Shown piece by piece: positions 6,243-25,969 of a stretch of 64,000 bases of DNA. The DNA is from Arthrobacter jiangjiafuii (GTDB lineage Bacteria > Actinomycetota > Actinomycetes > Actinomycetales > Micrococcaceae): contig NZ_CP076022.1 in the NCBI RefSeq assembly GCF_018622995.1, positions 930,001-994,000 of the forward strand. Direction: 5' to 3'. The first letter of the stretch is position 1; each line of letters begins with the position of its first letter. The position numbers and the translations under genes were made by a program. The notes under the pieces are model-generated. The model was not told the DNA's origin. It saw only the letters and a list, made by a program, of their open reading frames with translations, and ran no database searches.

Positions 6243-7606
6243 GCCCGGAGAACGAAAACAGGCAGCAGGGCCAACCAGCCCACCGGAAAGAGGAGGCGGC
6301 AGCCGAAGACACCCGGCTGCTGACCGCTGCCGAAACCGCAGGCGGGGCACTGCCGCCGCCTGCCGTTCCCGTCCCCGAATCGGAGCTCCACCCGGAGAGC
6401 AGCGATGAATCGGTGCTCCGCCGCATCGTCTCCGGGAACGCGCTGGTTTCGGTCCTCTCGGTCCTGATGGCGCTCATCGTCGGCGGCCTGCTGATCGCCC
6501 TCACCGACGAAGACGTTGCCAGTGCGGCATCCTACTTCTTCAGCCGTCCGGGGGACCTTTTTGCAGCTGCCTGGTCCGCGGCATCGGGGGCCTACATCGC
6601 CCTTTTCCAGGGCTCGGTCTTCAACTTCGAAGCCGAGAGCTTTTCCCGGATGATTTACCCGCTGACCCAGACGCTGACAGTGGCGACACCGCTGATCTGC
6701 GCCGGACTCGGCGTTGCCCTGGCCTTCCGCGCGGGCCTCTTCAACATCGGTGCTCAGGGCCAGATCCTCATCGGCGCCACCATGGCCGCCTGGGTCGGTT
6801 TCAGCTGGCACTTGCCGGTGGGGCTTCACCTGCTGGTCGTGGTGATCGCAGGTGCCGTCGGCGGTGCACTCTGGGGCGGCATTGCCGGCCTCCTCAAAGC
6901 CAGGACCGGCGCGCATGAAGTCATTGTGACCATCATGCTCAACTACATCGCCATCCAGCTGGTGCTCTTCCTGCTCACGACTCCGGGCTTCCAGCGACCG
7001 GGTTCCACCAACCCGATCAGCCCGCAGCTCGATACAACCGCCATGTTCCCGCCCCTGCTCGGCTCCGGCTTCCGCCTGCACTGGGGTTTCGTGATGGCCG
7101 TTGCCGCCACTGTCTTCATCTGGTGGCTGCTGAACCGTTCCACCGTGGGCTTCGAGCTGCGCGCAGTCGGAGCCAACCCGGCCGCTGCACGGAACGCCGG
7201 GATCAGCACCACCAAGGGCTACGTGATCGTCATGCTCATCGCCGGTGCCCTCGCCGGACTCGCCGGCGTTGCCCAGGTCTCCGGCACCGAAAAGGTGCTG
7301 ACCTCCGGCGTGGCCGCCAGCTTCGGCTTCGACGCGATCACGGTTGCCCTGCTCGGCCGCTCCTCTCCGTGGGGAACCTTCGCGGCAGGAATTCTCTTCG
7401 GCGCCTTCCGTGCGGGCGGCGTCACCATGCAGACCAGCACCGGAACCAACATCGACATCGTCCTGGTGGTCCAGTCGCTGATTGTCCTCTTCATCGCCGC
7501 GCCCCCGCTGGTCCGGTCGCTGTTTAGGATCCCGCCGCCGGGCGCGTTCAAGACATCCGGCAAGCGCACAACCAAGAACACCGAAGCAGCCGGAGGAAAA
7601 GCATGA
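6239..7606 (+). CDS. Nucleoside ABC transporter permease 1
   Basis: A 455-residue membrane protein of the BPD_transp_2 family (YufP/NupP-like). A hydrophilic N-terminal region of about 65 residues precedes roughly nine or ten hydrophobic helices. Family motifs include LFNIGAQGQILIGA and GTFAAGILFGAFRAGG. The GTG start overlaps the ATPase stop in GTGA, and its own stop overlaps the next ATG, so the three subunits are translationally coupled. The Ala/Pro/Glu-rich N-terminal tail is longer than in many homologues and its role is unknown. Confidence 0.88.
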   Translation: MSPENENRQQGQPAHRKEEAAAEDTRLLTAAETAGGALPPPAVPVPESELHPESSDESVLRRIVSGNALVSVLSVLMALIVGGLLIALTDEDVASAASYFFSRPGDLFAAAWSAASGAYIALFQGSVFNFEAESFSRMIYPLTQTLTVATPLICAGLGVALAFRAGLFNIGAQGQILIGATMAAWVGFSWHLPVGLHLLVVVIAGAVGGALWGGIAGLLKARTGAHEVIVTIMLNYIAIQLVLFLLTTPGFQRPGSTNPISPQLDTTAMFPPLLGSGFRLHWGFVMAVAATVFIWWLLNRSTVGFELRAVGANPAAARNAGISTTKGYVIVMLIAGALAGLAGVAQVSGTEKVLTSGVAASFGFDAITVALLGRSSPWGTFAAGILFGAFRAGGVTMQTSTGTNIDIVLVVQSLIVLFIAAPPLVRSLFRIPPPGAFKTSGKRTTKNTEAAGGKA

Positions 7607-8889
7607 GCACCGCAACCACTCTCTCCTCCGCGGGAAAGACTGCAGGGCAGGCAATCCGCAGCTGGAAAATCCCGGTCATCCTCTGGGCCCTGGCAATCCT
7701 CGGGTTCATCCTCTTCGGCCTCGGTTCCCCCTCCGCGGAAGTAACATTCCGCCTCACGGAGGAAAGCGCCGCCATCCAGCTGCCCAATATCGTGGTCTCT
7801 GCGCCGGTGCTGGGCTGGATCTCCTCGGTGGTCCTGCTGGCATCGGCCGCCTACTCCACCATCCTGGTCAGCAGGTTCCAGCACGTGCCGGTCTGGCTGA
7901 TAGCCATGTTCGCCGTCTTCTTTGTCGCTGCCTTCCTGACCTGGTCCGTGGGCAGCGCCCGCAGCCCCAGCGTCGCCATCTACGGGTTGCTGGCCGGATC
8001 CTTCACGCTGGCGTTCCCGCTGATCTTCGGTGCGCTTTCGGGTGTGCTCTGCGAGCGGTCCGGCGTTGTGAACATCGCAATCGAGGGCCAGCTGCTCTTC
8101 GGTGCCTTCGCCGCAGCAGTCGCCGGAACCCTCTCCGGCAACGCCTTCGTGGGGCTCTTCGCCGCAGCCGTTGCCGGTGTGCTGGTCTCGCTGGTCCTGG
8201 CAGTGTTCAGCATCAAGTACATCGTGAACCAGGTGATTGTCGGCGTCGTGCTGAACGTTCTGGTCTCCGGGCTGACCGGCTTCCTGTTCTCCACGGTGCT
8301 CAGCACCGACACCTCCAAGTGGAATTCCCCGCCCCGGCTGCCCTCCATCCGCATCCCGCTGCTGGCGGACATTCCGATCCTCGGCCCGATCCTGTTCGAC
8401 CAGTCCGTGATCGGCTACCTCATGTACATCGCCGTGGCGGGAATCTACTTCGGCCTGTTCCACACCAAGTGGGGCCTGCGTACACGGGCCGTCGGGGAGC
8501 ATCCCAAGGCGGCTGACACGCTGGGCGTGAATGTGAACCGCATGCGGTTCACCAACGTCCTGCTCGCCGGTGCGGTGGCCGGTGTCGGAGGCGCGTTCTT
8601 CACCCTCGTCTCGGTGTCCTCCTTCAACCGCGACATGACCTCCGGCCAGGGCTACATCGCGCTGGCGGCGCTGATCCTGGGCCGCTGGAACCCGATCGGT
8701 GCGCTCTTCGCCGCCCTGCTCTTCGGCTTTGCGTCGAACCTGCAGTCGGTGCTGAGCCTGCTCGGGACCCCGGTACCGAACCAGTTCCTGGCCATGCTGC
8801 CTTACGTGGTGACCATCTTCGCCGTCGCCGGTGTGGTGGGTAAGTCGCGCGGTCCTGCGGCCAGCGGCATACCGTATATCAAGGGCTGA
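7603..8889 (+). CDS. Nucleoside ABC transporter permease 2
   Basis: A 428-residue membrane protein of the same permease family (YufQ/NupQ-like). It shows the recognisable GVVNIAIEGQLLFGAFAA and GYIALAALILGRWNPIG segments. It forms the heteromeric channel with the preceding permease. The ATG overlaps the previous stop by 4 nt. About 37 nt separate it from the cytidine deaminase gene, so uptake and catabolism of nucleosides are likely co-expressed. Confidence 0.88.
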   Translation: MSTATTLSSAGKTAGQAIRSWKIPVILWALAILGFILFGLGSPSAEVTFRLTEESAAIQLPNIVVSAPVLGWISSVVLLASAAYSTILVSRFQHVPVWLIAMFAVFFVAAFLTWSVGSARSPSVAIYGLLAGSFTLAFPLIFGALSGVLCERSGVVNIAIEGQLLFGAFAAAVAGTLSGNAFVGLFAAAVAGVLVSLVLAVFSIKYIVNQVIVGVVLNVLVSGLTGFLFSTVLSTDTSKWNSPPRLPSIRIPLLADIPILGPILFDQSVIGYLMYIAVAGIYFGLFHTKWGLRTRAVGEHPKAADTLGVNVNRMRFTNVLLAGAVAGVGGAFFTLVSVSSFNRDMTSGQGYIALAALILGRWNPIGALFAALLFGFASNLQSVLSLLGTPVPNQFLAMLPYVVTIFAVAGVVGKSRGPAASGIPYIKG

Positions 8890-8926
8890 CGGCCGCACTG
8901 ATGCAGGAAACAAGCAAGGAAAACCT

Positions 8927-9364
8927 ATGAACACAGATACAGGTGCCGCTGCCGACGCAGCGGCAGGAATCGACTGGGACAGCCTGCAGGACGCGGCCCG
9001 TGCCGCCCTGGCCCACGCCTACGTGCCGTACTCGAAGTACCCGGTGGGGGCGGCGGCGCTGACCGACGACGGCCGGGTCATCTCCGGCGCCAACGTGGAA
9101 AACGCCTCCTACGGGCTGACCCTGTGCGCCGAGTGCGCCCTGGTCAGCGCGCTGCACATGACCGGCGGCGGGCGCCTGGCGGCGTTTGTCTGCGTGGACG
9201 GGGCAGGGGAGATCCTGATGCCGTGCGGACGCTGCCGGCAGCTGCTCTACGAATTCCGGGCTCCGGGCATGTTGTTACTTACCGTCAGCGGCATCCGGAC
9301 CATGGACGAGGTCCTGCCGGATGCCTTTGGACCGCAGCATTTGGAAGGACAGGACAGCAAATGA
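8927..9364 (+). CDS. cdd: Cytidine deaminase
   Basis: A 145-residue zinc enzyme converting (deoxy)cytidine to (deoxy)uridine. The zinc and catalytic residues are visible: Cys67-Ala-Glu69 in LTLCAEC and Cys100/Cys103 in PCGRCRQ, with SGANVENASYG before them. Length is typical of the small tetrameric form. The ATG at 8927 follows AAGGA; the open frame upstream overlaps the permease and was discarded. It overlaps deoA by 4 nt, so deaminated product passes to the phosphorylase. Codon 117 is TTA. Confidence 0.93.
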   Translation: MNTDTGAAADAAAGIDWDSLQDAARAALAHAYVPYSKYPVGAAALTDDGRVISGANVENASYGLTLCAECALVSALHMTGGGRLAAFVCVDGAGEILMPCGRCRQLLYEFRAPGMLLLTVSGIRTMDEVLPDAFGPQHLEGQDSK

Positions 9365-10650
9365 GCAGTGAAAAGTTTGACGCCGTCGACATCATCGGGA
9401 TCAAGCGTGACCGGGGAACGCTCTCGCCGGAACAGATTGACTGGACGATCGACGCCTACACCCGCGGCGCCATTGCCGACGAGCAGATGGCAGCGCTGAA
9501 CATGGCGATCCTCCTCAACGGCATGAGCCGGGCGGAGATTTCCCGCTGGACCTCGGCCATGATTGCCTCGGGCGAGCGGATGGACTTCTCCTCGCTGGGC
9601 AAGCCCACCACCGACAAGCACTCCACCGGCGGAGTGGGGGACAAGATCACCCTGCCGCTGGCACCGCTCGTCGCCGTCTTCGGGGTGGCAGTGCCGCAGC
9701 TTTCCGGGCGGGGCCTGGGCCACACCGGGGGAACCCTGGATAAGCTCGAGGCCATCCCGGGCTGGCGCGCAAACCTCTCCAACGAGGAAATGATGGCCCA
9801 GCTCGCCGACGTCGGAGCCGTCATCTGCGCCGCAGGAACCGGGCTGGCGCCGGCGGACAAGAAGCTCTATGCACTGCGCGACGTGACGGGAACGGTGGAA
9901 GCGATCCCGCTGATCGCCTCCTCGATCATGAGCAAGAAGATCGCCGAAGGCACCGGCTCTCTGGTGCTGGATGTGAAGGTGGGCTCCGGTGCGTTCATGA
10001 AGACCGAAGCCAACGCACGGGAGCTGGCGGAGACGATGGTGGCCCTTGGGAAGGATGCCGGGGTCAACACCGTGGCGCTGCTGACCAACATGGCCACGCC
10101 GCTGGGACTGACCGCCGGCAACGCCATCGAGGTCCAGGAATCCGTGGATGTCCTGGCCGGCGGCGGGCCGGCCGATGTGGTTGAGCTGACCGTCCGGCTC
10201 GCAGAGGAAATGCTGGCGGCCGCGGGACTGCCCGACGCCGATCCGGCCGCCGCGCTGGCGGATGGACGGGCCATGGACGTCTGGCGCCGGATGATCTCCG
10301 CCCAGGGCGGAGACCCGGATGCTGCGCTGCCGCGGGCACGGGAATCAGAAACCATTTACGCCGCGGCCGACGGTGTGCTGGTGGAACTGGACGCCCTCTC
10401 CGTGGGCGTGGCCGCCTGGCGCCTCGGTGCCGGCCGGGCACGCAAGGAGGACGTGGTGCAGGCCGGGGCCGGTGTGGTCATGCATGCCAAGCCCGGCGCG
10501 CAGGTCCGGGCCGGAGAGCCCCTGATGACGCTGCTGACGGACACTCCGGAGAAGTTTGACCGGGCGCGCGAGGCACTGGAAAACGCCGTCGTCATTGCTC
10601 CCGAAGGCTCCCGTCCGGCGCAGAAGCTGATCATCGACCGCATCAGCTGA
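9361..10650 (+). CDS. deoA: Thymidine phosphorylase (pyrimidine-nucleoside phosphorylase)
   Basis: A 429-residue enzyme splitting thymidine or (deoxy)uridine with phosphate into base and (deoxy)ribose-1-phosphate. The family signature SGRGLGHTGGTLDKLE is present, with the phosphate-binding KHSTGGVGDK and the lid region VKVGSGAFMK. A C-terminal PYNP-type domain (GVLVELDALSVG and following) completes the fold. The ATG at 9361 sits in ATGA over the cdd stop; the longer open frame reaching back to 9124 lies inside cdd and was ignored. It completes the nucleoside import and breakdown operon. Confidence 0.92.
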   Translation: MSSEKFDAVDIIGIKRDRGTLSPEQIDWTIDAYTRGAIADEQMAALNMAILLNGMSRAEISRWTSAMIASGERMDFSSLGKPTTDKHSTGGVGDKITLPLAPLVAVFGVAVPQLSGRGLGHTGGTLDKLEAIPGWRANLSNEEMMAQLADVGAVICAAGTGLAPADKKLYALRDVTGTVEAIPLIASSIMSKKIAEGTGSLVLDVKVGSGAFMKTEANARELAETMVALGKDAGVNTVALLTNMATPLGLTAGNAIEVQESVDVLAGGGPADVVELTVRLAEEMLAAAGLPDADPAAALADGRAMDVWRRMISAQGGDPDAALPRARESETIYAAADGVLVELDALSVGVAAWRLGAGRARKEDVVQAGAGVVMHAKPGAQVRAGEPLMTLLTDTPEKFDRAREALENAVVIAPEGSRPAQKLIIDRIS

Positions 10651-17540: not shown

Positions 17541-18937
17541 CCGGCAGGTCGGCGGCCCGGGGCAGGACCGGGCGGACGGCAACAGGTGCCGGGCTGCTGA
17601 CAGCGGCGGTACTGGCGCTGTCCCTCCTTCCGGCTGCCCCGGCCGCCGCCGACGAATGGCGGGACAAGCAGTACTGGCTTAACGACTACGGCTTCACGGA
17701 GGCCTGGAAAATCAGCCAGGGCGAGGGCGTGAAGGTCGCCGTGATCGACACCGGGATTGACCCCACACACCCCGACCTCGCCGGCGCCGTGGTGGGTGGC
17801 ACCGATGTCTCCGGAGCCGGGAACCCGGCCGGGAGCGCCGGGCTGGGCGCCGAGCCCGCGCACGGGACCCTGGTGGCGACCCTGTTGGCTGGGCGCGGAC
17901 ACGCCGCGGCCCCCGCCGGCGAAGGGGATACAAAGGACGACGCGGCCGACAAGGACAAGGACGCCGGTCCCAACCCCGAAGGCATCATGGGAGTGGCGCC
18001 GAAGGCCGAGCTGCTGGCTGTCTCGGCCTGGATCGGCCCGGACAATCCCGCCGGCATTCCGATCGAGGACCAGATCCCGGCCGCCATCCGGTGGGCCGTC
18101 AACAACGGCGCGCAGGTGATCAACATGTCCCTGGGCAGCACGTCGACCTCCTGGCCGCAAAGCTGGGACGATGCGTTCCTCTACGCCGAGCAGCAGGACG
18201 TGGTGGTGGTAGCTGCCGCCGGCAACCGCGGCGGCGGCATGGTCCAGGTCGGAGCTCCGGCCACCATTCCCGGCGTGCTCACCGTGGCCGGCGTAGACCG
18301 GCAGCGGGTAGCCAGCTGGGACTCCTCCTCCGAGGGGATCAGCATCGGGGTTGCGGCACCGGCCGAAAACCTGATCGGCGGATTGCCCGGCGGCACGGTC
18401 CAGTATGCGGATTGGAGCGGTACCTCCGGCGCCGCGCCGCTGGTGGCCGGCACGGCGGCCCTGATCCGCTCCGCCTACCCCGACCTCAGCGCCGCTGATG
18501 TGATCAACCGGATCATCAGCACCGCCAAGGATGCAGGAGTCCCCGGGCAGGACACGCTGTACGGCTATGGGTTGCTAGACGCTTCAGCGGCGCTGGCCGC
18601 CGATATCCCGCCGGTGGCCGCGAACCCGCTGGGCAGCATCGCCGACTGGATCAGGATCCACCGCCGGGACGCTTCCACCACGCCCGCCTCCGACGCGCCT
18701 GTGGCCGTGGAACCGTCAGCACCGGAGCTGCCGGAGCCGACCATTCCGACGGCGCTTTCACCGCAGGCGGAGGCCGATGTGTTGCCCGCTGCGCTGGTCC
18801 TGGGCTTCGGGGGACTGCTGCTGGCCGTTACCGCCGGCGGCGCGGTCATGGTGGTCCGGGCGCGGCGGAAGGTGCTGGAAAATCCCCTTCCTGACGAGGC
18901 AGATACCGGCCCTCTGGAACACCAAAATATCTCGTGA
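17537..18937 (+). CDS. Membrane-anchored S8 (subtilisin-like) serine protease
   Basis: A 466-residue exported protease. A signal peptide (Arg-rich start, hydrophobic core to residue ~38, APAAADE cleavage region) precedes the S8 domain with catalytic Asp71 (VAVIDTGID), His109 (AHGTLVATLLAG) and Ser297 (GTSGAAPLVAG), plus oxyanion Asn230. A Pro-rich stretch leads to one C-terminal helix (about 412-436) and a basic tail. This layout is like mycosins, but no type VII secretion genes are nearby, so the role is unknown. The GTG overlaps the stop of the Ppx gene in GTGA, so it is coupled to it. A ~30-residue Asp/Lys-rich insert lies after the catalytic His. Confidence 0.85.
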   Translation: MTGRSAARGRTGRTATGAGLLTAAVLALSLLPAAPAAADEWRDKQYWLNDYGFTEAWKISQGEGVKVAVIDTGIDPTHPDLAGAVVGGTDVSGAGNPAGSAGLGAEPAHGTLVATLLAGRGHAAAPAGEGDTKDDAADKDKDAGPNPEGIMGVAPKAELLAVSAWIGPDNPAGIPIEDQIPAAIRWAVNNGAQVINMSLGSTSTSWPQSWDDAFLYAEQQDVVVVAAAGNRGGGMVQVGAPATIPGVLTVAGVDRQRVASWDSSSEGISIGVAAPAENLIGGLPGGTVQYADWSGTSGAAPLVAGTAALIRSAYPDLSAADVINRIISTAKDAGVPGQDTLYGYGLLDASAALAADIPPVAANPLGSIADWIRIHRRDASTTPASDAPVAVEPSAPELPEPTIPTALSPQAEADVLPAALVLGFGGLLLAVTAGGAVMVVRARRKVLENPLPDEADTGPLEHQNIS

Positions 18938-18948
18938 ACGTTTTCACA
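18933..18948. promoter_or_regulatory. CRP/GlxR-like operator overlapping the ndh -35 region
   Basis: CGTGAACGTTTTCACA fits TGTGA-N6-TCACA with one mismatch. It covers the -35 box GTGAAC (18934-18939) of the ndh promoter, centred about 28 bp before the inferred start site, a position that would favour repression. It overlaps the last codon of the protease gene. Confidence 0.45.
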
Positions 18949-18962
18949 AAGTCGGGTATCAT
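18934..18962 (+). promoter_or_regulatory. Leaderless promoter of ndh
   Basis: -35 GTGAAC (18934-18939), 17-bp spacer, -10 TATCAT (18957-18962), then 6 nt (GGGGGC) to the ATG at 18969. Transcription should begin at or next to the start codon. Confidence 0.55.
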
Positions 18963-18968
18963 GGGGGC

Positions 18969-20354
18969 ATGGCATCTACGACTCAGTTTTCAGACCGTCC
19001 CCGCGTCCTAGTGGTAGGCGGTGGCTACGTAGGGCTCTATGTAGCGAAAAACCTCCAGAAGAAGGTCAAGGACCAGGGCGGGATCGTCACGGTTGTGGAT
19101 CCGCTGCCGTACATGACGTACCAGCCCTTCCTTCCCGAAGTTGCCGCCGGCACCATTGAGGCGCGCGACGCCGTCGTATCCCACCGCATGCACCTGAGGA
19201 ACACCGAGCTCATCACGGGCAAGGTCGTTTCCATCAACCACGCCGCCCGTACGGCCACCATCGAGCCGGGCGACGGCAGCGGGTCCTTTGAGCTCCCGTA
19301 CCAGGATGTTGTCCTGGCTGCAGGCTCGATCACCCGCACGTTCCCCATTCCGGGCCTCGCCGAAGCCGGCATCGGCATGAAGACCATTGAAGAAGCCGTG
19401 GCCACCCGCAACCACGTGCTGGAGCGCATCGAATCCGCTTCACTCATGCCTGCAGGCCCGGAGCGCGAACGCGCCCTGACCTTCGTCGTCGTCGGCGGCG
19501 GCTTTGCCGGCATCGAAACCCTGACCGAGCTTGAAGACATGGCCCGCGACGCCGTGCGCATCAACGACCGGCTCCGGCGCGAAGACCTCCGCTTCGTCCT
19601 GATCGAAGCCATGGGCCGCGTCATGCCCGAGGTCAAGCCCGACCAGGCCGAGTGGGTAGTCGCCAGCATGCGTGAGCGCGGCATCGAGGTGCTGCTGAAC
19701 ACGTCGCTGGCCTCGGCCGAAGACGGCGTGCTCAAGCTGATCAACATGGCCGACAAGTCCCCGGCCGGCGAATTCGGCACCGACACCCTGATCTGGACCG
19801 CCGGGGTCCAGGCCAACCCCATGGTCCGTGCCACCGACTTCCCGATCGATGACCGCGGCCGCGTCCGCGCCAACGCCGAACTGCGCATCACCGGCGACGA
19901 CGGCCCCCTCGACGGTGCCTGGGCTGCCGGCGACGTTTCCGCCGTTCCGGACCTCTCCGGTGGCGGCGTCGGCGGCTTCTGCGTTCCGAACGCACAGCAC
20001 GCCGTCCGCCAGGCCAAGCTGCTGGCCAAGAACATCCTGGCCGCCCGCTACGGCGTCGGCAGCGTCGAAGAGTACAACCACAAGAGCCTGGGTGCCGTTG
20101 CCGGCCTGGGCCAGTACAAGGGCGTGGCCAACATCATGGGCTTCGGTATGAAGGGCTTCCCGGCCTGGCTGGCACACCGTGGCTACCACGGCCTGGCCAT
20201 GCCGATGTTCGAGCGCAAGTTCCGCGTCGTCTCCGGCTGGCTCCTGAACGTGACCTACGGCCGCGACCTGACCGACCTGCGCAACCTGAAGGACCCGCGC
20301 GGGGCGTTCCGCACCGCAGCCACGCCGGCCAAGAAGAAGGAAGCCGTCAAGTAG
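18969..20354 (+). CDS. ndh: Type II NADH dehydrogenase (NADH:quinone oxidoreductase)
   Basis: A 461-residue single-subunit flavoprotein passing electrons from NADH to menaquinone without proton pumping. The FAD-binding VLVVGGGYVGLYVAKNL is near residue 13, the NADH-binding FVVVGGGFAGIETLTEL near residue 180, and GVQANPM, AAGDVSAVP and CVPNAQHAVRQAKLLAKN follow as in the family. The C-terminal amphipathic region (YHGLAMPMFERKFRVVSGWLLN) anchors it to the membrane. The ATG at 18969 follows the 6-nt leaderless arrangement. A hairpin ends transcription before the tRNA. Confidence 0.93.
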   Translation: MASTTQFSDRPRVLVVGGGYVGLYVAKNLQKKVKDQGGIVTVVDPLPYMTYQPFLPEVAAGTIEARDAVVSHRMHLRNTELITGKVVSINHAARTATIEPGDGSGSFELPYQDVVLAAGSITRTFPIPGLAEAGIGMKTIEEAVATRNHVLERIESASLMPAGPERERALTFVVVGGGFAGIETLTELEDMARDAVRINDRLRREDLRFVLIEAMGRVMPEVKPDQAEWVVASMRERGIEVLLNTSLASAEDGVLKLINMADKSPAGEFGTDTLIWTAGVQANPMVRATDFPIDDRGRVRANAELRITGDDGPLDGAWAAGDVSAVPDLSGGGVGGFCVPNAQHAVRQAKLLAKNILAARYGVGSVEEYNHKSLGAVAGLGQYKGVANIMGFGMKGFPAWLAHRGYHGLAMPMFERKFRVVSGWLLNVTYGRDLTDLRNLKDPRGAFRTAATPAKKKEAVK

Positions 20355-20379: not shown

Positions 20380-20424
20380 ACGACGGCGGTTCCTCCCTCG
20401 GGAGGGACCGCCGTCGTTGTTTTG
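20380..20424 (+). terminator. Terminator after ndh
   Basis: A long stem (ACGACGGCGGTTCCTCCC paired with the reverse complement ending at 20417, one G-U pair) with a very tight CTCG loop, followed by TGTTTTG. Confidence 0.75.
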
Positions 20425-20441: not shown

Positions 20442-20447
20442 TAGGCT
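20442..20447 (+). promoter_or_regulatory. Candidate -10 box for the tRNA gene
   Basis: TAGGCT lies 21 nt before the tRNA 5' end; TTGTTT at 20417-20422 is a possible -35 with a long 19-bp spacer. Confidence 0.35.
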
Positions 20448-20468: not shown

Positions 20469-20541
20469 GCCCCAGTAGCCCAATGGCAGAGGCAGTGGAC
20501 TTAAAATCCATGTGTTGTCGGTTCGAGTCCGACCTGGGGTA
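20469..20541 (+). tRNA. tRNA with UAA (Leu) anticodon but short variable loop
   Basis: A 73-nt cloverleaf can be folded by eye: acceptor GCCCCAG/CTGGGGT (ending in a G1-U72 wobble), U8-A9, 3-bp D-stem GCC/GGC with a 10-nt loop containing GG, anticodon stem GTGGA/TCCAT with loop CTTAAAA (anticodon TAA), a variable loop of only 5 nt (GTGTT), T-arm GTCGG-TTCGAGT-CCGAC, discriminator A73. CCA is not encoded. The anticodon and 3-bp D-stem are leucine-like, but known tRNA-Leu molecules are class II with a long variable arm, which is missing here. It stands alone between ndh and a small ORF. Confidence 0.82.
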
Positions 20542-20556
20542 CTGCCTCCAGAGGCA

Positions 20557-21042: not shown

Positions 21043-22056
21043 GTGCGGTCAACGACGATCAAGGACGTGGCGAAGGCTGCCGGCGTCTCTGCGGCAACCG
21101 CCTCCCGCGTCCTCTCCGGGCACTCCGCAACCTCCGAGGATGCCCGCCAGGCTGTGCGCAAGGCCGCTGCCGACCTCGGCTTCCGTCCCAACGCCCAGGC
21201 CCGCTCGCTGCGCAAGACCAGCACCCAGACCATCGGCCTGCTGCTGCCCGATGTCCGCAACCCCTTCTTCGCCGACCTGGCCCATGCCGTCGAGCAGCGC
21301 GCCCGCGAATTCGGCTACCTCACCCTCTTCGGCAACGCCAACGAGAGCCAGCAGCAGCAGGACAGCTACCTGGACGTGATGCTCTCCCAGCGCGTGGACG
21401 GCCTGATTGCCGCTCCGCAGGGGGAGGCCCGGCACCTGACCGGGCTGCTGGGCGGCGAAGTCCCCACGGTGTTCGTGGACCGCGTGGTCGACGGCGCGGA
21501 GCTTCCCAGCGTCACCGCGGACAACACCGGCGGCATAGCCGACGCCGTCCGCCACCTCACCGCGCTGGGCCACGCCAGGATCGGGTACATCGCCGGTCCG
21601 CAGTCCACGTCGACGGGCCGTGAACGGCTGCAGGCCTACCGGGCAGCCGTGGCCGACACCGGCGCAGATGCGGATGCTTCCCTGGTCTACCTCGGGGACT
21701 TCCAATCCGCCAGCGGCGCCGCAGGAGCACGGCACCTGCTGGACCTGCCCAATCCGCCCTCCGCGCTGCTGGCAGCGGACAGCCTGATGAGCATCGGCGC
21801 CGTCGGCGTCTGCAACGAACGCGGACTGGCGATCGGCCCGGATCTGGCCTTCGTGGCCTATGACGACATCGAAGCCTTTACGCTGCTCAATCCCGCGCTG
21901 ACCGTCATCGCCCACGATGTGCACGCCATGGGCCGCCTGGCCGTGGACCTGCTGCTCGCAGAGATTGCAGGCGAGGCTCCCGAATCGGTGGTGCTGCCGA
22001 GCACCCTCATCATCCGCGGCTCCACCCCGCCCCTCCCAGAAGGAAACCCAGCATGA
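21043..22056 (+). CDS. LacI family repressor of the ribose operon
   Basis: A 337-residue regulator. The helix-turn-helix is at the very N-terminus (TTIKDVAKAAGVSAATASRVLSG), followed by the hinge LGFRPNAQARSLR and a periplasmic-binding-like sugar domain (IGLLLPDVRNPFF ... FVAYDDIEAFTLLNPALTVIAHD). It should bind the paired palindromes upstream and release DNA on binding ribose or a ribose phosphate. The GTG at 21043 has AGGGAG upstream. Its stop overlaps rbsA by 4 nt, so repressor and transporter are one operon, an RbsR-like arrangement. Confidence 0.88.
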   Translation: MRSTTIKDVAKAAGVSAATASRVLSGHSATSEDARQAVRKAAADLGFRPNAQARSLRKTSTQTIGLLLPDVRNPFFADLAHAVEQRAREFGYLTLFGNANESQQQQDSYLDVMLSQRVDGLIAAPQGEARHLTGLLGGEVPTVFVDRVVDGAELPSVTADNTGGIADAVRHLTALGHARIGYIAGPQSTSTGRERLQAYRAAVADTGADADASLVYLGDFQSASGAAGARHLLDLPNPPSALLAADSLMSIGAVGVCNERGLAIGPDLAFVAYDDIEAFTLLNPALTVIAHDVHAMGRLAVDLLLAEIAGEAPESVVLPSTLIIRGSTPPLPEGNPA

Positions 22057-23585
22057 GCGAGAACCCCCTCCTGACGCTTGAGGGTGTCAGCAAGTCCTTC
22101 GGCCCGGTGACCGTGATCGACGGCGTGACCGTCAACGTGTACCCGGGAAAGGTCCAGGTGCTCCTGGGCGAAAACGGGGCCGGAAAATCGACCCTGATCA
22201 AGATGATGTCCGGGGTGTACCAGCCCGACGGCGGCCGCATCCTCGTGGACGGAAACCCGGTTTCACTGCCGGACACCAAGGCCGCCGAAGCGGCAGGCAT
22301 TGCCACCATCCACCAGGAACTGAACCTTGTGGGATCGATGAGCGTCGCCGAGAACATCTGCCTGGGCCGGATGCCCCGCAAATACGGGCTGGTAGACCGC
22401 CGCGCCATGAAGGCCCGCGCCCGGGCAGCGCTGGATCTGATCGGCCTGGACGTGGACCTGGACCAGCCCGTCGGGGAACTGGGCATCGCCCGCCAGCAGC
22501 TGGTGGAGATCGCCAAGGCGCTGAGCCTGGACGCCCGGATCCTGATCCTGGACGAGCCGACGGCGGCCCTGACCACCCGTGAAATCGCCGCACTTTTCAC
22601 AGTGGTCGAGGACCTGCGCCGCAAAGGCGTGGGCATGGTGTTCATCTCCCACCATCTGGACGAGATCGCCGCCATCGGGAACTCCGTGTCCGTGCTGCGG
22701 GACGGGAAATTCATTGCCGAGGTCCCCGCCGGCACACCGGAGGACGAGCTGGTGCGCCTGATGGTCGGGCGGGACATCGAGGCGCAGTTCCCGCGGCGGC
22801 GTGAATATGCCGGTGAGGCCCAAACGCTGCTCGAAGTCCGGGGCCTGTCCATGAAGGGCCTGATCCACGACGTCTCCTTCTCGGTCGCAGCGGGCGAGGT
22901 CGTCTCGCTGGCCGGGCTGATGGGTGCCGGCCGCACCGAGGTGGTCCGGGCCATCGCCGGAGCTGACTCCTACACCGCGGGTTCGGTCAGCGTGAGGGGA
23001 AAGCAGCTTCCCAAAGCGGACATCGGCGCGGCCATCCGGGCCGGCGTCGGCCACGTACCGGAGGACCGCAAGGTCCAGGGCCTGGTACTCGAGGCCGCCG
23101 TGAACGACAACATCGGCTACGCGACGCTGGCAGCCACCGCCAAGGCAGGCCTGGTGGACTTCTCCGGGCAGCGCGCACGCGCCCAGGAAGTGGCGGACCG
23201 GCTGCGGATCCGGATGCACAGCCTGGACCAGGCCGTGGGTTCGCTCTCCGGCGGCAACCAGCAGAAGGCCGTGTTTGCCCGCTGGATCGTAGCCGGCTCC
23301 ACCGTCCTGCTGCTGGACGAACCCACCCGCGGCGTGGATGTGGGCGCCAAGGTGGAAATCTACGAACTGATCAACGCGATCACCGCCGCCGGCGGCGCCG
23401 TCGTCATGGTGTCCAGCGAACTTCCGGAGGTGCTGGGCATGAGTGACCGCATCCTGGTCATGAGCGGCGGACACATTGCCGGTGAGCTTGATGCCGCCGG
23501 CGCCACCCAGGACGCCGTGATGTCACTGGCGGTGCGGGATATACAGCGTGACCTGGAATACCAACTGATGAAGGACGGATCATGA
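22053..23585 (+). CDS. rbsA: Ribose ABC transporter ATP-binding protein
   Basis: A 510-residue double ABC ATPase of the CUT2 family. NBD1 carries Walker A GENGAGKST, Walker B LILDEPTAAL and the loop IHQELNL; NBD2 has a degenerate Walker A (GLMGAGRTE), the signature LSGGNQQKAVFARW and DEPTRGVDVGAK. It drives sugar import with RbsC and RbsB. The ATG overlaps the lacI stop in ATGA, and its stop overlaps rbsC. The ribose assignment rests on the rbsD gene at the operon end. Confidence 0.9.
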   Translation: MSENPLLTLEGVSKSFGPVTVIDGVTVNVYPGKVQVLLGENGAGKSTLIKMMSGVYQPDGGRILVDGNPVSLPDTKAAEAAGIATIHQELNLVGSMSVAENICLGRMPRKYGLVDRRAMKARARAALDLIGLDVDLDQPVGELGIARQQLVEIAKALSLDARILILDEPTAALTTREIAALFTVVEDLRRKGVGMVFISHHLDEIAAIGNSVSVLRDGKFIAEVPAGTPEDELVRLMVGRDIEAQFPRRREYAGEAQTLLEVRGLSMKGLIHDVSFSVAAGEVVSLAGLMGAGRTEVVRAIAGADSYTAGSVSVRGKQLPKADIGAAIRAGVGHVPEDRKVQGLVLEAAVNDNIGYATLAATAKAGLVDFSGQRARAQEVADRLRIRMHSLDQAVGSLSGGNQQKAVFARWIVAGSTVLLLDEPTRGVDVGAKVEIYELINAITAAGGAVVMVSSELPEVLGMSDRILVMSGGHIAGELDAAGATQDAVMSLAVRDIQRDLEYQLMKDGS

Positions 23586-24580
23586 ACAAGGCAGCGGTGC
23601 AGACGCCGGAGACCGGCGCGCGGAAGAAGGCCCCGGATACCGGTGCCCGGGTCAGGAAGTTCCTGGCCGACAATGGGGCACTGGTCGGCCTGGTGGTCCT
23701 GGGGCTGGCGCTCTTTATCGCCACCCCGGATTTCCTGACCGGTCCGAACCTGCTGAACATCGGCATCCAGGCCTCGGTGATTGCCGTCCTGGCCTTCGGC
23801 ATGACCTTTGTGATCGTGGCCGCCGGCATCGACCTGTCGGTGGGCTCGGTGGCAGCCCTGTCCGCCATGGGCTCGGCCTGGATGTTCACGCAGGGGAACC
23901 TTCCCGGCTGGATGGCCCTGCTGGGCGGCCTGTTGATCGGAACGCTCAGCGGCGCCGTCAGCGGATTCGCCGTTGCCTACGGCCGGCTGCCCTCGTTCAT
24001 CGCCACTCTGGCCATGCTCAGCATTGCCCGCGGCCTGACCCTGGTCCTCTCCGACGGCCGGCCGATCGCCACCGCCAGCGAAGTCTCCTTCCTGGGCGGA
24101 GACCTGGGGCCCATCCCGATGCCCATCGTGGTCCTGGTGATCGCCGGCATCGCCGCAGCCCTGATCCTGAACTACACCGTGATCGGCCGCTACATGTATG
24201 CCGTCGGCGGCAACACCGAAGCCGCGCGCCTCTCCGGCATCCCGGTCCGCCGCGTGCTGGTTACCGTCTTTGCGCTGTCGGGGCTTTTTGCGGCCCTTGC
24301 CGGGCTGCTCCTGTCCGGGCGCCTGGACTCTGCCCAGCCCCAGGCCGCTTCCGGCTACGAGCTGGACGCCATCGCCGCCGTCGTCATCGGCGGTGCATCG
24401 CTGGCCGGCGGTGTCGGGCGGATCAGCGGCACCCTGATCGGCGCCCTGGTGCTGGTGGTGATCCGCAACGGACTGAACCTGTTGAACGTCTCCTCGTTCT
24501 GGCAGCAGGTAGTCATCGGCCTCGTGATCGCCCTCGCCGTCGGCGCAGATGCGCTGCGCCGGAAAAACTCCACCCACTAA
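23582..24580 (+). CDS. rbsC: Ribose ABC transporter permease
   Basis: A 332-residue inner-membrane permease (BPD_transp_2). About nine or ten hydrophobic helices with the family segments VAAGIDLSVGSVAALSAMG, GRYMYAVGGNTEAARLSGI and GGASLAGGVGRISGTLIGAL. A ~35-residue hydrophilic N-terminus precedes helix 1. It overlaps rbsA by 4 nt. Confidence 0.92.
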   Translation: MNKAAVQTPETGARKKAPDTGARVRKFLADNGALVGLVVLGLALFIATPDFLTGPNLLNIGIQASVIAVLAFGMTFVIVAAGIDLSVGSVAALSAMGSAWMFTQGNLPGWMALLGGLLIGTLSGAVSGFAVAYGRLPSFIATLAMLSIARGLTLVLSDGRPIATASEVSFLGGDLGPIPMPIVVLVIAGIAAALILNYTVIGRYMYAVGGNTEAARLSGIPVRRVLVTVFALSGLFAALAGLLLSGRLDSAQPQAASGYELDAIAAVVIGGASLAGGVGRISGTLIGALVLVVIRNGLNLLNVSSFWQQVVIGLVIALAVGADALRRKNSTH

Positions 24581-24647
24581 CGGTCCCCGGACCGCTTCCC
24601 CGGTGCCGCGCACGGCACCGGACCACCCCCACCAAAAGGAAAAGACA

Positions 24648-25589
24648 ATGAAGTTCTCCTCCGCCCGCAAGAGTGCGGCACTGACCGTCTCCCTGGCCCT
24701 GCTGCTGACCGCCACCGCCTGCAACCGGGGCGACGACGCAGCGGCCGACGGCGGCACGGTCACCCTGGCCGTCTCCACCCTGAACAACCCCTTCTTCGTT
24801 GAACTGCGCGACGGCGCGCAGGCGGCAGCCGAGGAGGCAGGCCTGAACCTGGACGTGCTGGACGCCCAGAACGACTCCGCGACCCAAACCAACCAGCTGG
24901 CTACCGCCGCCACGTCCGGCACCGACGGCGTCATCATCAACCCGGTCGATTCCGACGCAGCGGCAGCCTCCATCAGCCCGCTGCTCAGCGACGAAACCCC
25001 GATCGTAGCGGTGGACCGCACGGTCAACGGCGCCGAAGTCCAGTCGCTGGTTTCCAGCGACAACAAAGCCGGCGGACGCCAGGCGGCCGAAGAACTGGCC
25101 AAGGCCATGGGCGGCGAAGGCGAGATCATCGTCCTTCAGGGTGTTGCCGGAACCTCCGCCAGCCGCGACCGCGGTGCCGGTTTTGCCGAAGGCTTGAAGG
25201 ACTACCCGGGCATTAAGGTCGCAGCTCAGCAGACAGCCAACTTTGACCGGGCCGAAGCCCTGAACGTCGCCACCAACCTGCTCCAGGCCAATCCGGGGGT
25301 TACGGGAATCTTCGCCGAGAATGACGAGATGGCGCTGGGCGCTATCCAGGCCCTGGGCAACCGCGCCGGAAGCGACGTCAGCGTGGTCGGCTTCGACGGC
25401 ACGGAAGGCGGCTTCAAGGCGATCCAGGATGGCACCCTGACGGCCACCATCGCCCAGCAGCCCGCCGAGCTGGGCAAGCGGTCCGTAGAGGTCCTGGCAC
25501 AGCTGCTCGCCGGCGAAACCGTGGAATCCACTATCCCGGTTCCGGTCACCACCGTGAACACCGACAACGTGGCTGAATTCACCTCATGA
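24648..25589 (+). CDS. rbsB: Ribose-binding lipoprotein
   Basis: A 313-residue periplasmic-binding-protein-like lipoprotein. The signal (KFSSARKSAALTVSLALLL) ends in lipobox TATAC with Cys25. The mature protein shows TLAVSTLNNPFFVELRDGAQ, DAQNDSATQTNQ, PVDSDAAAASI, ASRDRGAGF and VGFDGTEGG, which line the sugar cleft in RbsB. ATG at 24648 has AAAAGGAAAAG upstream; the open frame before it has no start signal. About 67 nt separate it from rbsC, the largest gap in the operon, and could contain a processing or extra ribosome-loading site. Confidence 0.92.
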   Translation: MKFSSARKSAALTVSLALLLTATACNRGDDAAADGGTVTLAVSTLNNPFFVELRDGAQAAAEEAGLNLDVLDAQNDSATQTNQLATAATSGTDGVIINPVDSDAAAASISPLLSDETPIVAVDRTVNGAEVQSLVSSDNKAGGRQAAEELAKAMGGEGEIIVLQGVAGTSASRDRGAGFAEGLKDYPGIKVAAQQTANFDRAEALNVATNLLQANPGVTGIFAENDEMALGAIQALGNRAGSDVSVVGFDGTEGGFKAIQDGTLTATIAQQPAELGKRSVEVLAQLLAGETVESTIPVPVTTVNTDNVAEFTS

Positions 25590-25969
25590 AAAAGGCCGGC
25601 ATCCTCAACGCACCCCTGAACGCCGCTATCGGCCGGCTCGGTCACGGCCACCTCGTGGTGATCGCCGATTGCGGCCTGCCGATTCCCGACGGCGTCCCTG
25701 CCGTGGACCTGGCCCTGGTGAAGGGCATCCCGTCCTTCGCCCAGGTGCTGGCCGCGCTGATGGAGGAGATTGTGGTCGAGGGGGCATTGCTGGCTGAGGA
25801 AGCCGGAGGCACCGGCGTGGAAGCCCTCGTTGCTGCTGCGGGGCTGAGCCCTGAAACGGTGACACATGAGGAGTTCAAGGCACTGCTCCCGTCCGCACGG
25901 CTCATCGTGCGGACGGGGGAGGCCACGCCCTACGCCAACGTCATGTTGCGCAGCGGAGTGAGCTTTTAA
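25586..25969 (+). CDS. rbsD: D-ribose pyranase
   Basis: A 127-residue mutarotase converting beta-D-ribopyranose to the furanose form used by ribokinase. It has the family start MKKAGILNAPLN, the catalytic His region (RLGHGHLVVIADCGLPIP), LALVKGIPSF and the C-terminal IVRTGEATPYANVML. The ATG overlaps the rbsB stop by 4 nt. No ribokinase gene follows, so rbsK must be elsewhere. No terminator hairpin is evident after it. Confidence 0.93.
   Translation: MKKAGILNAPLNAAIGRLGHGHLVVIADCGLPIPDGVPAVDLALVKGIPSFAQVLAALMEEIVVEGALLAEEAGGTGVEALVAAAGLSPETVTHEEFKALLPSARLIVRTGEATPYANVMLRSGVSF

Follow-up and report, generated by a model that had tools for sequence, protein, structure and literature searches.

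The tRNA gene and its surroundings

The window, which is the whole stretch of 64,000 nucleotides of Arthrobacter jiangjiafuii analysed here (NZ_CP076022.1, 930,001–994,000), contains one tRNA gene by both ARAGORN and Rfam RF00005. In the window scan, ARAGORN called a tRNA with anticodon taa at 20469–20542, and RF00005 matched 20469–20541 at 61.2 bits against a gathering threshold of 29. The gene lies downstream of an open reading frame which we take to be NADH-dehydrogenase-like (ndh-like), a label that comes from the sequence-only reading and from inspection by eye. The features are listed below.

18777–20354, + strand: ndh-like ORF upstream of the tRNA, as listed, with a provisional start
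20380–20417, + strand: terminator-like hairpin of 17 pairs, 3′ of the ndh-like gene (1 found against a shuffle mean of 0.4)
20442–20447, + strand: candidate −10 element TAGGCT, kept upstream in genus loci
20469–20541, + strand: class I tRNA-Leu(UAA), 73 nt without CCA (ARAGORN, Rfam and genome inventory)
20478–20493, + strand: D arm, GCC / C13 A14 A15 U16 G18 G19 C20 A20a G21 A22 / GGC
20502–20504, + strand: anticodon UAA, in the loop CTTAAAA (20500–20506)
20512–20516, + strand: variable loop GUGUU of 5 nt (positions 44–48), with A15 faced by U48
20541, + strand: discriminator A73, read from sequence

The hairpin would part the tRNA from the ndh-like transcript. The hexamer TAGGCT, taken as a candidate −10 element, was found no more than 75 nt upstream in 27 of the 29 genus loci and was replaced by TACGCT in the other two, starting 23–57 nt before the tRNA; a sigma-70 consensus scan gave no site. 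According to tblastn, the ndh-like gene stands upstream of the tRNA in all 29 genus loci, and it is present at 13 and absent at 9 of 22 further loci, the nine including two tRNA-Asn loci and three with CAA. Adjoining the tRNA at 21043–25969, a LacI-type regulator is followed by apparent genes of a sugar ABC transporter and by one RbsD-like gene, as named by eye from the translations.

Cloverleaf and class

The acceptor strands GCCCCAG/CTGGGGT close with a G1-U72 end pair, the D stem GCC/GGC of 3 bp carries a 10-nt loop (CAATGGCAGA), and the T arm reads GTCGG-TTCGAGT-CCGAC. The D loop is of the Leu type, and C12-G23 and C13 occupy the sites of G12-C23 and G13 in class II tRNA-Leu. The cloverleaf set out in the sequence-only reading, with TAA in CTTAAAA, the 3-bp D stem and 10-nt loop, A73, the 5-nt variable loop and G1-U72, could thus be read directly in every part, and two tRNA callers concur with it. 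Folding alone gave −28 kcal/mol (z = −2.65), with 1 of 200 shuffles equally good. The minimum-energy fold kept the acceptor stem, the T stem and most of the anticodon stem and paired the D arm otherwise, so that support for the cloverleaf comes from the tRNA models and from covariation. The latter was scored on 53 distinct bacterial class I sequences with a UAA anticodon: pairing held in 1054 of 1060 stem cells, and double-sided changes occurred at 17 of 20 pairs, including 2 of the 3 D-stem pairs; the genus alone (10 distinct sequences) gave 197 of 200 paired cells and double-sided changes at 3 of 20 pairs. The earlier reading had proposed an ARAGORN run and a check of cloverleaf conservation; these returned a tRNA call and the compensatory changes just described. 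A better fold with another anticodon was sought and none was found, since ARAGORN, Rfam and covariation concur, the unconstrained fold differing in the D arm.

Bacterial tRNA-Leu is class II and has a long variable arm. A class I tRNA is a cloverleaf with a variable loop of 4–5 nt, as defined in the accessible text of PMC7609411, and the window tRNA, with its 5-nt loop, has this form and not the class II arm of at least 10 nt. Of 192 parsed short tRNA-Leu relatives, 180 have a variable loop of 5 nt and 12 have one of 6 nt, and G1-U72 is common (110/192).

The sole UAA tRNA of the genome

The source genome is one contig of 3.59 Mb with 52 tRNA places according to RF00005. ARAGORN, run over stretches covering all of them, returned five tRNA-Leu genes (CAA, CAG, GAG, UAG and UAA), of which the first four are class II and 83–84 nt long. 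RF00005 and ARAGORN show no UAA tRNA in the genome besides the window class I tRNA, and a hidden class II tRNA-Leu(UAA) was not present among the 52 places. With no other UAA tRNA and under standard decoding rules, UUA would therefore be read by the window tRNA alone in this genome, and not by a second decoder, as had been considered from the sequence. The accompanying remark that TTA is rare holds, TTA making up 10 of 1553 Leu codons in 53 window ORFs, which were chosen by length and GC3 only and are not annotated genes. A search of 12 genomes, the source genome included, gave one LeuRS over the family cut-off in each, and a second LeuRS over the cut-off in none.

Spread of the short and long forms

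The short tRNA-Leu(UAA) was found in 29 of 29 genus genomes examined, and the conservation at this locus that had been suggested as a check across Micrococcaceae extends far beyond that family. A pattern scan of 198 genomes, an even sample of the order, gave 162 with the short form, 6 with the long form, none with both and 30 with neither; the patterns allow no mismatch and most matches were not checked as tRNAs, so "neither" does not mean absence. Indeed, one genome (G102) was missed by the first short pattern and matched by a looser one, and another (G386) was missed by the long pattern through one D-loop letter. Across 258 genomes of the phylum, the same kind of scan gave 65 short, 114 long, 1 both and 80 neither, while an overlap of about 29 would be expected under independence. 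In the lone overlap genome (G287), the long match (L141) was called a tRNA and the short match (L127) was not. Of the class I matches retrieved, only one other was not called as a tRNA, namely L154, which is an additional copy in G298. Reversed patterns used as a control gave 0 in the order scans and in one phylum scan, and two genomes (G376 and G396) in the other phylum scan. The short and long UAA forms nearly exclude each other across the sampled genomes. Nocardia farcinica and Arthrobacter sp. StoSoilB13 are among the named organisms with the short form; in both cases the record belongs to a plasmid collection.

Some class I tRNA-Leu bodies bear a CAA or a UAG anticodon instead, in bacteria (L095, L106, L107) as well as in phages (L080, L084, L110, L113). 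In one genome (G054), class I occurs with CAA (L095) and class II with UAA (L145), which is the reverse of the source genome.

Phages and traces of integration

Short tRNA-Leu was called in phages of Myxococcus, Synechococcus, Rhodococcus, Streptomyces, Serratia, Salmonella, Acinetobacter and Thermobifida, in some cases with a CAA or UAG anticodon. Viral contigs held at least 120 stretches matching the pattern, and ARAGORN called tRNA-Leu(UAA) in 77 of the first 80, one of them partial. Two Arthrobacter phages, Karkharias and PeggyLeg03 (L087 and L115, 1501–1545), contain bases 29–73 of the tRNA at 91% identity near tyrosine integrase genes, and this copy is perhaps attP. A second copy of bases 43–73 was detected in three genus genomes, about 6, 40 and 44 kb downstream, at the following places.

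G008:C14:205052–205082: second copy of bases 43–73
G002:C1:1016066–1016096: second copy of bases 43–73
G018:C3:216804–216834: second copy of bases 43–73

The window tRNA gene thus looks like an integration site; no integrase adjoining the tRNA was recognised by eye within 1.5 kb in these three genomes.

Leucine identity letters and tertiary core

According to the accessible text of a 2023 review (PMC9976931), the determinants of E. coli LeuRS are A73, A15-U48, G18G19, A20a and D/T-loop contacts, the bacterial Leu identity set also including U8-A14. The same source states that the long arm is not crucial, that tRNA-Leu without its anticodon and variable arms remains active, and that human mt-tRNA-Leu(UUR) is recognised via A73 and A14. 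When judged against these E. coli determinants, not those of the host, the window tRNA carries the whole bacterial set by sequence, namely A73, A15-U48, G18G19, A20a, U8-A14 and the T-loop contacts. Among 37 distinct short tRNA sequences of the source genome, it alone combines A73, U48, A15 and A20a.

We collected 203 distinct short tRNA-Leu strings, of which five were dropped (two at contig ends, three unparsed), and trimming reduced the set to 192. A73, U48, A15, A20a and A22 occur in 192/192 and A14 in 191/192; for the many sequences obtained by pattern, C12, C13, A14, A15, A20a, A22 and G23 had been fixed by the search, and the parser demanded G18G19, while A9, U48 and A73 were free. A73, U48, A15 and A20a also occur in 45 of 45 short tRNA-Leu found without the search pattern. 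At other positions the two forms part. Short forms have A9 in 185/192, C12-G23 in 191/192 and C13 in 190/192, whereas the parsed long forms have G9 and G12-C23 in 30/30 each and G13 in 29/30 (2 of 32 unparsed), position 9 being free and letters 12-23 and 13 being fixed in both search patterns. Without pattern-found rows, the short forms gave A9 in 43/45, C12-G23 in 44/45 and C13 in 43/45, and the long forms G9 in 10/10, G12-C23 in 10/10 and G13 in 9/10, with 1 of 11 unparsed. The G9, G12-C23, G13 core, a class II feature derived in the present analysis and not from the literature, is absent from the window tRNA, which has A9, C12-G23 and C13 instead. These core letters may reflect an exchange of class II tertiary contacts for class I ones, which would have followed arm loss.

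Co-adaptation of LeuRS was considered and rejected: in five LeuRS of one family (f34, below), the true class split gave 2 separating columns, against 1 to 20 in the nine other 2-versus-3 splits.

Exchange of the two forms at one locus

Both forms occur in family f34, one member of which is recorded as Rubrobacteraceae. The joint pattern matched in 24 of 31 f34 genomes, 18 with the short and 6 with the long form, and G386 provides a seventh long form. The same upstream stretch lies within about 1 kb of the tRNA in 23 of the 24 loci, for both forms, the 24th locus (L188, in G494) being too short to tell, and the acceptor and T-arm letters are near-identical between the two forms. On a tree of the flanks (23 rows, 18 short and 5 long), the short/long label changes 5 times, at least 3 of them on well-supported branches, a count that gives no direction; shuffled labels gave 4.6 changes on average, and the label is hence not clustered on this tree.

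In three metagenome-assembled genomes (G358, G494 and G386), the short gene is interrupted near the anticodon loop, and inserts with an HNH-like ORF and an intact class II tRNA-Leu(UAA) were located as follows.

L162 (reverse complement), 6403–10407: insert with HNH-like ORF and intact class II tRNA-Leu(UAA)
L205, 380–2721: insert with HNH-like ORF and intact class II tRNA-Leu(UAA)
L342, 3933–4494: insert with HNH-like ORF and intact class II tRNA-Leu(UAA)

The distance from the start of the 5′ part to the start of the intact long tRNA-Leu(UAA) is 470, 471 and 473 nt, with an ORF of 134–135 aa between them. Two of the proteins matched Pfam HNH at 9.2e-6, above the curated cut-off, and at 3e-4, just below it, and the other two element proteins are 77 and 79% identical to that of G494. 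The displaced 3′ part lies further downstream in G358 and G494, while the G386 contig ends before it; in G358 and G386, the 5′ part is preceded by host sequence. The cargo in G494 includes an Mrr-type nuclease domain and that in G358 a DUF4145 protein. Over the 31 f34 genomes, the HNH-like protein had three close matches, and three further genomes gave weak matches. Two short peptides from it found the same three contigs only in a scan of the genome collection, and with them no relative was confirmed in viral contigs. In the other long-form genomes (G379, G290, G484 and G491), neither an HNH match nor a 5′ remnant was found, and no HNH-like gene adjoining the window tRNA was seen in the listed ORFs. 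Extra 3′ fragments were observed beside a whole short gene at G372:C257:1–43 (bases 32–74) and G490:C4:30348–30393 (bases 29–74). A likeness between the flank after the long tRNA and that after the displaced 3′ part was also tried; it was weak in G494, where 0 of 500 shuffles scored as well, and absent in G358 (498 of 500), and we set it aside.

On the hypothesis that the HNH nuclease targets the short gene, the short and long tRNA-Leu(UAA) could be competing alleles that selfish elements disseminate: a mobile HNH endonuclease would cut one at the anticodon loop and carry the other as an uncuttable replacement, and the order-wide short form would be a fixed outcome. We hold this idea tentatively and regard it as somewhat doubtful.

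Interpretation

The window tRNA is, with high confidence, a working class I tRNA-Leu(UAA) and the cell's sole UUA decoder. This reading follows from the tRNA calls, the sole UAA tRNA, its conservation, the near-exclusion of the class II form, the intact identity letters and the single LeuRS, and the short form as a long-kept replacement of the long form in the order is part of it. The tRNA is most likely a normal leucyl-tRNA that does without the long arm, as suggested by A73, A15-U48 and A20a in 192/192 and by one LeuRS. LeuRS would recognise it via the discriminator A73 and the elbow (A14, A15-U48, G18G19, A20a and T-loop contacts), none of which should need a long arm, while A9, C12-G23 and C13 would replace G9, G12-C23 and G13 in a class I-type tertiary core. 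Transcription, leucylation and decoding by the window tRNA are presumed. Among the interpretations offered from the sequence alone, the tRNA-Leu that has lost its long arm is borne out by its intact Leu letters, by a single LeuRS above the cut-off and by the lack of a further UAA tRNA; the other synthetase, the regulatory role and the second decoder are not.

If a synthetase other than LeuRS, such as AsnRS or LysRS, charged this class I body with its UAA anticodon, UUA would be mistranslated or reassigned. The D-arm sequence is largely common to the window tRNA and the tRNA-Asn and tRNA-Lys of the source genome, some BLAST matches of the window tRNA are tRNA-Asn, and there is a human precedent, a tRNA-Met whose altered anticodon makes it a short tRNA-Leu(CAA), as given in the accessible text of PMC8450103. 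However, the window tRNA agrees with tRNA-Leu in A73, in A15-U48 and in its 3-bp D stem with A20a, whereas the genome's tRNA-Asn, inspected by eye, has G73 and a 4-bp D stem. The window tRNA is moreover the only UAA tRNA, the short and long UAA forms seldom if ever occur together in the sampled genomes, and some f34 genomes carry a class II tRNA-Leu(UAA) at the shared locus, which makes leucine the most likely meaning of UUA under either form. Charging by another synthetase is therefore very unlikely.

Equally slight is the chance of a regulatory or non-translating tRNA, acting as a bldA-like switch or an aminoacyl donor. The rarity of UUA (10/1553) means that its supply could gate TTA-containing genes, as Streptomyces bldA does according to the accessible text of PMC4932002. 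Against this role stand the sole UAA tRNA, the TTA codons in use and the near-exclusion between the two forms in the sampled genomes, and no donor-type gene adjoining the tRNA was seen by eye among the listed ORFs; regulation could still add to decoding. Lastly, a prophage remnant or pseudogene, which the phage copies of this tRNA family and the integrase-linked and repeated 3′ fragments might suggest, is the least credible reading of all in view of the compensatory changes, the upstream synteny in 29/29 genus genomes and the absence of another UAA tRNA.

If the window tRNA is a working tRNA-Leu(UAA), UUA in this bacterium and, by pattern, in most sampled genomes of its order would be read by an arm-less tRNA-Leu. 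Such a tRNA would constitute a natural test of which tRNA-Leu parts its synthetase needs and a caution for annotation rules that assign isotype from the long arm. The locus swaps in f34 would be matched pairs for measuring the cost of arm loss, and if the HNH link is true, a tRNA gene would be replaceable by a parasite carrying its own cure.

Comparison with known systems

The accessible text of the 2023 review places the long arm in tRNA-Leu everywhere but in animal mitochondria (PMC9976931), and tRNA-Leu-2, 3 and 5 of M. tuberculosis are named as long-looped in that of PMC11541572, which says nothing there about the remaining ones. Our literature search, from which subscription papers and supplements were mostly out of reach, turned up no description of a class I tRNA-Leu(UAA) in the role of standard UUA decoder in bacteria. 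In the accessible literature, one bacterial short-loop tRNA-Leu has appeared in print: a 2019 paper gives a single sentence to a tRNA-Leu(UAG) that Mycobacterium mucogenicum and M. phocaicum-type strains carry in a phage-like cluster of tRNA genes (PMC6582537, accessible text). It resembles the window tRNA in its short variable loop and its actinobacterial host, and its cluster has an HNH endonuclease gene. However, the mycobacterial tRNA is an extra copy beside a long-armed isoacceptor, whereas the window tRNA is the only UAA tRNA and is chromosomal across the order. What is new here is a short tRNA-Leu as the presumed standard UUA decoder, with the Leu identity letters present and a body outside the class II definition.

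Animal mitochondrial tRNA-Leu likewise has no long arm, but it belongs to an organelle with its own LeuRS, while the window tRNA is bacterial and complete in its stems. The nematode nev-tRNAs also show a mismatch between variable-arm class and anticodon, in the opposite direction, with a long arm on tRNAs that have class I anticodons (PMC4033280, accessible text). With bacterial class II tRNA-Leu(UAA), such as Streptomyces bldA, the window tRNA has in common the UAA anticodon, the Leu D loop with A20a, A15 and A73, and in f34 the same locus; it differs in having no long arm and in A9, C12-G23 and C13 for G9, G12-C23 and G13.
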